Source of the DNA: Luteimonas terricola
GTDB taxonomy: Bacteria; Pseudomonadota; Gammaproteobacteria; Xanthomonadales; Xanthomonadaceae
Direction: 5' to 3'
DNA length: 64,000 nucleotides
Assembly: GCF_004352845.1 (NCBI RefSeq)
Contig: NZ_SJRX01000001.1
Location: 868,001-932,000 of the forward strand
Below the pieces are notes generated by a model. That model worked only from the letters and a program-made list of their open reading frames with translations, was not told the origin of the DNA and did not search any database. Below are positions 13,947-56,501 of the stretch, piece after piece. The position numbers were made by a program, and so were the translations under genes. How positions within the stretch are numbered: position 1 is the first letter of the stretch; every line of letters starts with the position of its first letter.

Positions 13947-14399
13947 ATGCCGAACATCCGCACCCGATCGATCGCCGTTCTCCTGCTGCCCCTGGCCCTG
14001 GCCTTCGCGCTGCCCGCCGTCGCCCAGCCCGCGGACGGCGCTTCGCCGCCGCCGGCCTGGGACCAGCTCACCCAGGCCCAGCGCGACGCGCTGATCGCCC
14101 CCGTGCGCCAGCGCTGGAACGACCATCCGGAAAAGCGCGCGCACATGCTGGCCCACGCCGAACGCTGGCAGGACATGGATCCCGGGCAGCGCGAGCGCGC
14201 CCGCCGCGGCGCCGAACGCTGGCGGAAGATGGATCCCGACAAGCGCGAGGCGATGCGCGCGCTCTACGCACGGCTGCGAACGCTGCCCGAGGCCGAGCGC
14301 GCTGCCCTGCGCGAAGAGTGGCGTGCAATGGGCCCGGAACAGCGACGTGCCTGGAGCAAGGCCAACCCGGCCCCGCCCGAGGCATCCGGGGACCGTTGA
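13947..14399 (+). CDS. DUF3106 periplasmic helical protein
   Basis: 150 residues: a signal peptide (1–26, ending AVA) then a highly charged helical domain with repeated W..M.P..R/K motifs (WQDMDPGQRERARRGAERW, RKMDPDKREAMRALYARL, WRAMGPEQRRAW), the DUF3106 pattern. Third gene of the sigma operon. The start could also be the GTG at 13938, which overlaps the DUF3619 stop. The repeated helical periplasmic design recalls stress or metal sensor proteins of the Spy/CpxP/CnrX kind, which is analogy only. Confidence 0.8.
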   Translation: MPNIRTRSIAVLLLPLALAFALPAVAQPADGASPPPAWDQLTQAQRDALIAPVRQRWNDHPEKRAHMLAHAERWQDMDPGQRERARRGAERWRKMDPDKREAMRALYARLRTLPEAERAALREEWRAMGPEQRRAWSKANPAPPEASGDR

Positions 14400-14435: not shown

Positions 14436-14460
14436 GCGGCTGACGCCAGCCGCCTTTTTT
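14436..14460 (+). terminator. Intrinsic terminator of the sigma-factor operon
   Basis: Stem GCGGCTG (14436–14442) and CAGCCGC (14447–14453), loop ACGC, followed by a C and six T (14455–14460). A textbook Rho-independent terminator 37 nt after the DUF3106 stop. Confidence 0.88.
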
Positions 14461-14540
14461 GGTTCATCTCCGAACTCCGGGGAACCGGTTCGACGAGGAG
14501 TGTCTGCCTCTTTCGCTACGCCTCGCGGTGACCTGGGGGG

Positions 14541-14645
14541 CCCCGCCGTGGCCGGGAGGCCTTCGCGGCTTCGCCCCCGGCTTCCGCCTGGCGGAGGATG
14601 CCTCCTCCTTGACTTCCCCGCGATGGCCTCCCGGCCACGACGGGG
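14541..14645 (+). repeat. Structured repeat copy E1 (outer and inner stem, conserved core)
   Basis: Imperfect palindromic element in the 483-bp stretch (14400–14882) that has no gene. Outer arms 14541–14561 and 14625–14645 pair over 21 bp with one mismatch. Inside lie CCCCCGGC (14574–14581), a small inner hairpin TCCGC-CTG-GCGGA (14583–14595), and the core GCCTCCTCCTTGACTT (14600–14615). A second copy in opposite orientation lies at 14713–14808. The rest of the stretch (14461–14540, 14646–14712, 14809–14882) shows no coding signal, only a GAACCGGTTC palindrome near 14482. Confidence 0.85.
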
Positions 14646-14712
14646 CTCGGCGTTGCTGCAGGTGCGCGGGTGACCAGCTTGCGCTCCTCGGGCCACCGCG
14701 TATTGTTGCGCA

Positions 14713-14808
14713 CCGGGTGCCAAGGCCCTTGAGAGCGAAGTCAAGGAGGAGGCGATGGCCGCAGGCCAGCGCCGGGGGACATGAGCGCTCAAGGGCCTTG
14801 GCACCCGG
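14713..14808 (-). repeat. Structured repeat copy E2, inverted relative to E1
   Basis: Outer arms 14713–14733 and 14788–14808 are perfect 21-bp complements but unrelated in sequence to the arms of E1. Read on the minus strand it has the same order as E1: arm, CCCCCGGC, inner hairpin TGGCC-TGC-GGCCA (14756–14768), the identical 16-nt core (14738–14753), then the second arm. On the plus strand the core holds AAGGAGG followed 5 nt later by an ATG and a nine-codon frame. It lies 75 bp beyond the pntAA stop. Confidence 0.85.
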
Positions 14809-14882
14809 CGCCCGCGCTCTAGCTATGGCGCGCCATTCCCTCAGTTGGGAGAAGAACCTTTTTTTCGACAGCAGCTGCCGGC

Positions 14883-15977
14883 TCAGCCTTCGCGCGGCGG
14901 CCAGACCGTCTTCGCCAGCAGTTCATCCTCCCAGTCGAAGGCGAGCGCGCCTTCGGAGACCAGCAGGCTGGCGAAATTGAACGCGTTGCGCGCGAACATC
15001 TCGCTGGCATGCAGGGCGCCGCTGCTGGCCAGGTTCAACGGCCCGGCCACGGTGACGCCGCCGGCGTCGATGGTCTCGCCGGGGCGCGTGAGTTCGCAGT
15101 TGCCGCCGGTCTCGGCAGCCAGATCGACGATCACGCTGCCCGGCGCCATGCCCTCGACCATGGACGCGGTGATGATCCGAGGCGCCGGACGCCCGGGCAC
15201 CGCCGCGGTGCAGACGATGGCGTCGATGCCGCGCAGGTGCTCGCCCAGGCGGCGCTGCTGCTCGGCGCGCTCCTCCTCGGTCAACGCCCGCGCGTAGCCG
15301 CCCTCGCCCGCGGCGCTCACGCCGAGGTCGAGGAAGCGGCCGCCCAGCGATTCGATCTGTTCGCGCGTTTCAGGACGCACGTCGAAGCATTCCACCTGCG
15401 CGCCCAGCCGGCGCGCGGTGGCGACCGCCTGCAGGCCGGCCACGCCGGCACCGATCACGAGCACCTTCGACGGCCGGATGGTGCCGGCCGCGGTGGTGAG
15501 CATGGGGAAGAAGCGCGGTGCCAGCTGGGCGGCGATCAGCACCGCCTTGTAGCCGGCCATTCCCGCCTGCGAGCTGAGCACGTCCATCGCCTGCGCACGC
15601 GTGGTGCGCGGCAGGCGCTCGAGCGGAAACGCGACCAGGCCGCGCGAGCGGATCGCTTCGGCACGCGCCGGATCCCCTTCCGGCTGCAGCTGGCCGATGA
15701 TCGCGGCACCTTCGCGCAGCGTTGCCAGCACATCGGGCGCCGGCGCCTGCACGCAGAGCACCAGGTCGGCGCCGGACAGCGCCGCCGAGGCGTCGTCGAC
15801 CAGGGTCGCACCGGCGGTGGCATAGGCCTCGTCGGGGAAATGAGCAAGTGCGCCAAGGCCGCGCTCGACCGCCACCGTGGCGCCGGCGGCCACCAGCTTC
15901 CTGCAGGTTTCGGGGGTCAAGGCAACCCGTCGTTCACCGGGCGCGGACTCGCGCACTACGCCTATGCTCACTGCCAT
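14883..15977 (-). CDS. pntAA: NAD(P) transhydrogenase subunit alpha, part 1
   Basis: Soluble NAD(H)-binding dI subunit of the proton-translocating transhydrogenase. 364 residues, normal for the separate alpha-1 subunit. Signatures: N-terminal IGVVRESAPGERRVALTPE, the RxQAMDVLSSQAGMAGYKAV block, and the NAD Rossmann segment KVLVIGAGVAGLQAVATARR. It is on the same strand as pntAB–pntB but separated from them by 2.06 kb with an opposing ECF operon and two structured repeats. It follows the DUF1631 gene by 62 bp on the same strand. Confidence 0.95.
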   Translation of the reverse strand: MAVSIGVVRESAPGERRVALTPETCRKLVAAGATVAVERGLGALAHFPDEAYATAGATLVDDASAALSGADLVLCVQAPAPDVLATLREGAAIIGQLQPEGDPARAEAIRSRGLVAFPLERLPRTTRAQAMDVLSSQAGMAGYKAVLIAAQLAPRFFPMLTTAAGTIRPSKVLVIGAGVAGLQAVATARRLGAQVECFDVRPETREQIESLGGRFLDLGVSAAGEGGYARALTEEERAEQQRRLGEHLRGIDAIVCTAAVPGRPAPRIITASMVEGMAPGSVIVDLAAETGGNCELTRPGETIDAGGVTVAGPLNLASSGALHASEMFARNAFNFASLLVSEGALAFDWEDELLAKTVWPPREG

Positions 15978-55960: not shown

Positions 55961-56501
55961 GGTGCTCCAGCCAGTCGCGGGCGATGAACAGCGCCGCGAT
56001 CGACCGGCCTTCCGAGAAATCCTCGCGCAGGATCAGCTCGTGCAGGCGGTCGAGCCTCCATGGCACCACTTCCAGCTCCTCCGGCTCGTCGCCGGGGAGA
56101 CGCTCGGGATACAGGTCGCGCGCGATGACAAGGTGGGTGGAATGGCTCATGTAGGTCGGCGCCAGCGTCAGGCTGCGCAGCACGTCGATCCGCCGCGCGC
56201 CGTAGCCGGCCTCCTCCTTGAGTTCGCGATCGGCGGCCTCGGCCGGGGTCTCGCCGGCATCGATCCGGCCCTTGACCAGGCCCAGCTCGTAGCGGTGGAC
56301 GCCGGCGGCGTACTCGCGCACCAGCAGCACGGTGTCGTCGTCGACCAGGGGCACCACCACCACGGCGCCATGGCCGCGGCCGTGCAGGCGCTCGTAACGC
56401 CGGCGCTCGCCGTTGGAGAACTCCAGGTCCATGCGCTCCAGGCGATAGGGGCCGGCGTCGGATTCGGTGATCTCGTGGATGATCGGCAGGCGGCGGCTCA
56501 T
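55947..56501 (-). CDS. nudE: ADP compounds hydrolase NudE
   Basis: Nudix hydrolase for ADP-ribose, NADH and Ap3A-like compounds. 184 residues from MSRRLPIIHEI. The Nudix box is complete, GRIDAGETPAEAADRELKEE then AG, fitting Gx5Ex7REUxEExG. Lies just upstream of and overlapping cysQ, the same neighbourhood as in other gammaproteobacteria. Divergent from bioA by 38 bp. Confidence 0.9.
   Translation of the reverse strand: MSRRLPIIHEITESDAGPYRLERMDLEFSNGERRRYERLHGRGHGAVVVVPLVDDDTVLLVREYAAGVHRYELGLVKGRIDAGETPAEAADRELKEEAGYGARRIDVLRSLTLAPTYMSHSTHLVIARDLYPERLPGDEPEELEVVPWRLDRLHELILREDFSEGRSIAALFIARDWLEHHVVG

Follow-up and report, generated by a model that had tools for sequence, protein, structure and literature searches.

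Paired hairpins with a near-fixed purine-rich loop in an ISL3-type MITE of Luteimonas terricola: a candidate RNA module

We analyzed an inverted pair of hairpins, E1 and E2, in a 64,000-nucleotide window of the Luteimonas terricola genome and found that both lie within a small unit whose assignment as an ISL3-family MITE is well supported by the transposase found between the same ends in relatives. We somewhat favor the explanation that E1 and E2 are cargo of this MITE and that the hairpin module acts as an RNA on transcripts. The wider proposal is that of an undescribed RNA module in which GG-N-GG faces GG-N'-GG, with N and N' paired. Mobile elements whose ends are unrelated would carry this module in two proteobacterial classes, and its presence on both strands would let it work under transcription in either direction; we regard the case for this proposal as evenly balanced.

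Both hairpins sit between the 3' ends of convergent genes (Table 1). E1 (type A) is 105 bp and E2 (type B) is 96 bp in length, with folding z-scores of -8.0 to -9.8 for the window elements. The re-measured coordinates and arms agree with the initial annotation on the placement of both palindromes and on their arm mismatches (one in E1 and none in E2, over 21 bp each). The extent that it gave was right for the two hairpins but short of the full unit, which includes the terminal repeats. E1 is an altered copy that carries CTTCGCCCCC in place of the majority CTCATGTCCCCC, a form shared with three other type A copies in the same genome. Elsewhere in the window, a core-like 16-mer with one mismatch and no hairpin partner occurs at 56209-56224; its sequence recurs in other genomes with similar flanks and is not a copy of the element.

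Table 1. Features at the E1/E2 site, in window coordinates
Feature	Position	Strand	Evidence or remark
DUF3106 gene, upstream, convergent	13947-14399	+	PF11304, 3e-22
Intrinsic-terminator-like stem-loop, then T6, directly left of the MITE	14436-14453	+	1 found vs 0.6 expected in shuffles
T6 flank, left	14455-14460	none	
ISL3-type MITE (398 bp) enclosing both hairpins	14461-14858	none	Terminal repeats and unit length
Left terminal repeat GGTTCATCTCCGAACTCCGGGGAA, A side	14461-14484	+	0 mismatches to pattern
Hairpin E1 (type A)	14541-14645	Purine-core strand minus	Palindrome, covariance model, folding
E1 arms	14541-14561 and 14625-14645		1 mismatch in 21
E1 core, pyrimidine form GCCTCCTCCTTGACTT	14600-14615	+	
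Spacer, E1 to E2	14646-14712	none	
Hairpin E2 (type B)	14713-14808	Purine-core strand plus	Palindrome, covariance model, folding
E2 arms	14713-14733 and 14788-14808		0 mismatches in 21
E2 core, purine form AAGTCAAGGAGGAGGC	14738-14753	+ (16-mer itself reads on -)	
Right terminal repeat GGTTCTTCTCCCAACTGAGGGAAT, B side	14835-14858	-	1 mismatch to pattern
T7 flank, right	14859-14865	none	
AlaDh/PNT family gene, downstream, convergent	14883-15977	-	PF01262, 1.9e-59; PF05222, 1.6e-38

The copies have common ends, which read GGTTCATCTCCGAACTCCGGGGAA and GGTTCTTCTCCCAACTGAGGGAAT in the window and form an imperfect terminal inverted repeat, and the unit that they enclose in the window is small and lacks a transposase gene. 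Two-hairpin units measured 370-414 bp in the L. terricola genome (G000) and 406-435 bp in a genome of another genus (G065). We looked at target duplication in 40 units, after removing five of 45 rows that were nested or under 225 bp. The best register was 8 bp, with an identity of 0.650 compared to 0.349 ± 0.042 for shuffled partners, and exact 8-bp duplications were present in five of the 40 units (e.g. TTTTTCGT, TTTTTCTT, AAAAGGAA and AAGAAAAA). At least seven of eight positions at a border were A/T in 31 of the 40 units. A terminator-like stem with a T-tract directly adjoined 27 units, on either side, compared to 7 of 1422 sites drawn at random from those loci. The T6 and T7 flanks of the window unit fit a duplicated T-tract, the T-runs leaving the length of the duplication open. 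The terminal repeats, the 8-bp duplications and the ISL3 ends in relatives strongly support the earlier suggestion of a non-autonomous mobile hairpin, and we infer that the unit has moved.

The L. terricola genome gave no match to an ISL3, a Y1 (PF01797) or an IS1595 transposase, and we did not recover an autonomous copy from it; the six stray ends (five plus one) were all partial, deleted or cut copies. A search of plasmids produced one 29-bp match to an end of the unit, on a Xanthomonas translucens plasmid, and this match led us to search with the terminal end itself. With up to one mismatch, the terminal end was present in 27 of 297 genomes of the same family. Many of the 30 end-bearing loci listed were cut by contig ends, and in seven of the 30 another end lay some 1.3 kb further inward (L302, L304, L308, L320, L324, L326 and L330). 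The interval codes for a protein of 401-406 aa, checked in three of the seven loci, and all three proteins matched DDE_Tnp_ISL3 (PF01610; 3e-68, 8e-65 and 6e-66) and contained the ISL3 helix-turn-helix domain; the two tested against NCBIfam also matched transpos_ISL3 (3e-101 and 5e-97). The presence of an ISL3 transposase between the same ends in relatives argues that the window unit is an ISL3-family MITE. Among ten core-bearing genomes, four had an ISL3 match over the cut-off, two had one below it and four had none.

The initial annotation had proposed a search for a linked tyrosine transposase. None was present in the genome, and the ends imply an ISL3-family DDE transposase. Y1 matches occurred in 208 of the 297 family genomes, so that the presence of Y1 says little; with no Y1 match in L. 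terricola and no core within about 2 kb of five Y1 loci from four core-bearing genomes, we rejected a Y1/RAYT link. The IS1595 family was likewise discarded as the mobilizer, with a match in none of eight genomes. One genome (G214) contained fourteen near-identical Y1 transposase matches, each with one in-frame TAG.

Other contents were found within such ends. On the X. translucens plasmid pCIX43 (L300:6063-8022), two ISL3-type ends surround about 1.96 kb without a transposase; the interior codes for three unnamed proteins of 115, 227 and 158 aa with no Pfam match over the cut-off, and TTTTTTTG flanks both sides next to a terminator-like stem. By its ends, this locus appears to be another cargo within the same ISL3-type ends. 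Two further loci, L322 (from 1501, 413 bp) and L310, have ISL3-type ends and, by eye, contain two hairpin-like motifs of another kind, CGAGTCAG..CTGACCGAG together with the inverted form. These two loci raise the possibility that ISL3-type elements carry two-hairpin cargo more widely.

The 16-nt core, with up to two mismatches, was matched 94 times in the 3.04-Mb L. terricola genome compared to none for the reversed control. The stretches that we read contained 45 copies each of type A (E1-like) and type B (E2-like), so that the further copies sought in the initial annotation do exist, and each type is nearly constant within the genome. The copies were arranged as 33 A-B pairs, mostly head to head, along with 24 hairpins that stood singly, often at contig ends. 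Many contigs of this assembly end inside a hairpin, and one copy (L010 near 1330) contains long runs of G; assembly probably failed at the repeats, and copies may be hidden thereby. A remnant of a third hairpin type, with the arm GGCAGCAGGCATCG as in Luteimonas padinae copies, was seen at L206 ~2640-2800 (G000:C10 near 675261).

The distribution of the hairpin outside this genome is patchy. The core, with up to one mismatch, was present in 57 of the 297 family genomes, in some of them in coding sequence. Among genomes sampled across the class, a strict match was present in only 2 of 369, one of the two being L. terricola itself. Searching one genome per species with a 17-nt version of the core gave at least 93 loci, and the other half of the motif stood at the right distance in at least 60 of the 93 listed. 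Fifty of these 60 loci were Betaproteobacterial, mostly from Comamonadaceae and Sphaerotilaceae; nine were from Lysobacteraceae and one from an unplaced gammaproteobacterium. The 33 listed loci that fail the strict count were spread over many groups, apart from seven Betaproteobacterial ones, among which the three from Ramlibacter show a variant whose inner arm is longer. Strict matches, one or more per genome, occurred in 50 of 150 genomes belonging to the family of one Betaproteobacterial carrier, against zero in the control columns shown. The Betaproteobacterial units are also repeated, at about 300-370 bp, and have other ends, starting by eye with CGGCA in one genome (G665) and with ACTGCC in another (G662); we saw no target duplication in these units. 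The hairpin was absent from the ISL3 insertion sequences tested and from the two ISL3-type MITEs L310 and L322, and we read it as a module separate from the ISL3 vehicle.

Phages gave no match, and a viral contig collection contained two motif loci (L298:697-773 and L299:7351-7431), neither of them with the terminal repeat. We also considered a recurrent neighbor gene, using 90 loci that were left after 32 of 122 had been omitted for want of the second motif half; three of those kept (L136, L137 and L139) are probably chance matches. An all-against-all comparison of their open frames returned mostly frames across the repeats and shared genes, the eight of these proteins that we scanned with Pfam were ordinary metabolic, transport or regulator proteins, and the idea was dropped.

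Structural selection, as claimed in the initial annotation, is strongly supported by several lines of evidence. The outer stem scored above the 95% level of mismatched partners in 400 of 496 hits read, a set that includes overlapping loci counted more than once. We aligned 81 diverse copies (alignment A1), namely the 82 of 115 copies with an outer-stem score of at least 13, less L084:1320-1409. Under a 36-pair structure, 86.6% of cells in A1 were paired compared to 58.8% in shuffled alignments, and the covariation score was 0.633 compared to 0.147 ± 0.007 when shuffled and 0.09-0.12 when the partner was slid by one to three columns. Pairing was thus kept in aligned copies, with two-sided change in 32 of the 36 pairs around the near-fixed core. 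RNAalifold, given only the A1 alignment, returned 24 pairs, 23 of which had two-sided change. Because the rows of A1 were chosen by outer-stem score, the pairing and covariation seen in the outer helix follow in part from that choice, and the 400 of 496 stems are the less biased measure. The inner helix was not a selection criterion, and its 10 pairs were paired in 91.4% of cells, nine of them with two-sided change. Core conservation is also partly built in because the copies were found through the core; a looser partner search that used the loop pyrimidines and a few fixed letters still recovered TGTCCCCCG in 162 of 173 partners of strict hairpins.

A covariance model (A2), built from 46 hairpins from Betaproteobacterial loci or from genomes reached via such loci, was applied to the window out of sample. 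The model recovered both elements, with scores of 82.7 bits for E2 (E 4e-17) and 46.4 bits for E1 (E 1.7e-8), whereas the next match reached 16.1 bits; over 39 loci of G065 it gave 70 hits. The initial annotation had taken the contrast between E1 and E2 as compensatory change. The arms of E1 and E2 belong to two fixed lineages, so that their difference within one genome proves little; it is across many genomes that compensatory change with a near-fixed core is seen.

We compared the two strands at helix positions that depart from Watson-Crick pairing, with A.C and G.T penalized alike in the stem alignment. In 87 diverse copies, the pyrimidine-core strand had 134 A.C and 17 G.T, which read on the purine-core strand as 134 G.U and 17 A.C. 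Per copy, 66 leaned to A.C and 4 to G.T on the pyrimidine strand. The bias persisted when the inner ends were trimmed, and splitting the copies by locus number gave purine-strand counts of G.U and A.C of 47 vs 11 in Lysobacteraceae and 83 vs 5 in the rest. The partner hairpins (n = 173, many of them close copies) showed the same bias, 266 vs 35. At every site, types A and B occupy opposite strands, and a bias of replication or transcription therefore does not account for the result. The G.U excess argues that selection for folding acts on the purine-core strand, and we consider this conclusion from the pairing pattern well supported.

On the purine strand, the near-fixed internal loop is GAAGUC-AAGGAGGA facing GGGGGACAU, also written as GUC-AAGGAGGA facing GGGG-GAC. 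A scan of its middle pair, with the neighboring letters kept fixed, gave A.G 237, G.A 7, C-G 4, A.A 3, U-A 1, A-U 1 and G.G 0, and the GG on either side of the middle position was almost invariant on both loop strands. The G.A form occurred in a Lysobacteraceae genome (L076) and in Betaproteobacteria (e.g. L157 and L344). These counts fit a paired purine-rich internal loop. A two-tier G-quadruplex built from the four GG tracts is conceivable, but the middle loop positions vary in concert, which argues for a duplex-like loop. In seven copies AAGGAGG is replaced by AAGGGGG, and the opposite strand of the loop carries a corresponding change. These variants break the Shine-Dalgarno motif while the loop change is matched; we therefore rejected a Shine-Dalgarno role, and the anti-Shine-Dalgarno resemblance highlighted in the initial annotation is probably incidental.

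The orientation of the hairpins was strict. Close pairs faced each other with pyrimidine cores inward in 132 of 134 cases, in a count for which some genomes were sampled in more than one set; there was one tandem pair on each strand and none facing outward. For a further 88 hairpins no partner was recognized; 24 of these 88 were close to the end of a contig or locus. Since the pair is inverted, a transcript from either side meets the pyrimidine-type hairpin first and the purine hairpin second. As to the position of copies relative to gene ends, a check proposed in the initial annotation, 35 of 36 scorable clusters in L. terricola were downstream of one gene or two (17 convergent, including a spurious hit; 18 tandem; 1 divergent), as judged with a home-made gene caller and with a flanking gene missing in 23 of 59 clusters. 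In G065, 28 clusters could be scored: 13 were convergent, 9 were tandem, 4 were divergent and 2 fell within a called gene. The corresponding counts for the 56 scorable clusters of the genome_contigs loci were 14, 35, 5 and 2.

In our preferred explanation, an ISL3 transposase that is now without a match in this genome would have spread the unit in trans. The units are sited preferentially against the T-tract of terminator hairpins and duplicate 8 bp of A/T-rich target. Their cargo consists of an outer stem that is free in sequence, a near-fixed purine internal loop and an inner hairpin that is again free in sequence, and each direction of transcription includes one purine-core hairpin, the second of the two. 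The module would act at the RNA level, in read-through or 3'-end transcripts, where the fixed loop could be presented to a host protein or RNA and thereby influence what becomes of the transcripts. The most economical interpretation is that carriage on both strands makes an RNA element useful both ways. One point against it is that the hairpins are mostly behind terminators, so that only read-through would transcribe them. Also counting against this explanation are the divergent clusters (four in G065 and five in the genome_contigs loci) and those inside genes (two and two), the 88 partnerless hairpins, and the ISL3 results in the ten core-bearing genomes, with no match in four and only one below the cut-off in two; counting against the RNA reading itself is that G.T pairs are tolerated in single-stranded DNA too.

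The purine-core strand could instead fold as single-stranded DNA and be recognized by an HUH/Y1-type transposase or some other enzyme, as at REP or IS200/IS605 ends, with the ISL3 ends acquired later in Lysobacteraceae. Such a substrate would be expected to have a fixed loop, free stems and strand-specific folding, with G.T tolerated, and the repeated Betaproteobacterial units with other ends and the frequency of Y1 genes in the family are in its favor. We nevertheless consider it unlikely, given that L. terricola has about 90 cores and no Y1 match, that the five Y1 loci of core-bearing genomes had no core nearby, and that the ISL3 ends already explain movement in Lysobacteraceae. Template switching can produce two-sided changes without selection, and the fold might have no function if palindromes were kept perfect by template switching or gene conversion at replication and the core by recent descent of mobile copies. 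The near identity of copies inside one genome is consistent with this proposal, but it predicts no one-strand bias between G.U and A.C, which the strand counts already disfavor, and no paired changes at a loop position; moreover, two bacterial classes have retained the loop although their stems have diverged completely, making the proposal quite improbable. Finally, the complementary loops that unchanged cores give to each inverted pair might kiss, the pair being the working unit, in keeping with the strict facing orientation. That loop variants occur with an unchanged partner hairpin (L344, L157 and L148), that G.U is tolerated on the purine strand only and that hairpins without a recognized partner are common make such kissing hard to credit.

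Small mobile repeats have in many cases been known chiefly as palindromes in DNA. The large natural sequence set available here fixes the fold, the folding strand and the positions that must pair, making the repeat testable as an RNA with a definable partner. The module occurs in units whose ends are of at least three kinds, which suggests that it is of use to the element, or that the host tolerates it for a reason, and the module is relevant to the question of why gene ends accumulate such elements. Rfam gave no match above the gathering cut-off in the window, and at relaxed E-values only three far sub-threshold matches, all to two miRNA families. Searches of open-licence literature with sequence words and combinations of terms gave no matching description of the element, and the 10-letter word GTCCCCCGGC returned only papers unrelated by title; we thus found no Rfam family or open paper that matches the hairpin module.

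As described in PMC3733652, REP sequences are palindromes of 20-40 bp that occur in high copy at gene ends, with inverted dimers (BIME, REPIN) often composed of two sequence variants. The hairpins described here are alike in their high copy, position at gene ends and arrangement as inverted dimers, but at about 100 nt they are roughly three times the REP size given there and they combine a near-fixed internal loop with free stems. By eye, no GTAG or CGTC stem foot was seen in the aligned copies. With this difference in size, and with no cognate RAYT in the genome, the unnamed REP class suggested in the initial annotation is not a good fit. The Correia elements, or NEMIS, of Neisseria are described in PMC2649163 as small mobile elements whose folded transcripts can affect neighboring genes. 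The present unit resembles them in being small, mobile and able to fold. Correia elements are single palindromic elements with other ends, unlike the present unit with its two internal hairpins and shared core. Integron attC sites have free stem sequence, fixed unpaired positions and one folded strand, and in this respect the present hairpin would work like them; we did not notice the end motifs of attC in it. As a whole, the unit is close to ISL3 insertion sequences and their derived MITEs, with which it shares the terminal repeat, the 8-bp A/T-rich duplication, the absence of a gene of its own and a mobilizer in trans in relatives. It differs from them in that the sampled parents lack the internal hairpin pair, which occurs also in units with other ends. 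An ISL3 MITE as such is of an ordinary kind, whereas the shared structured module with its strand-specific fold is not.
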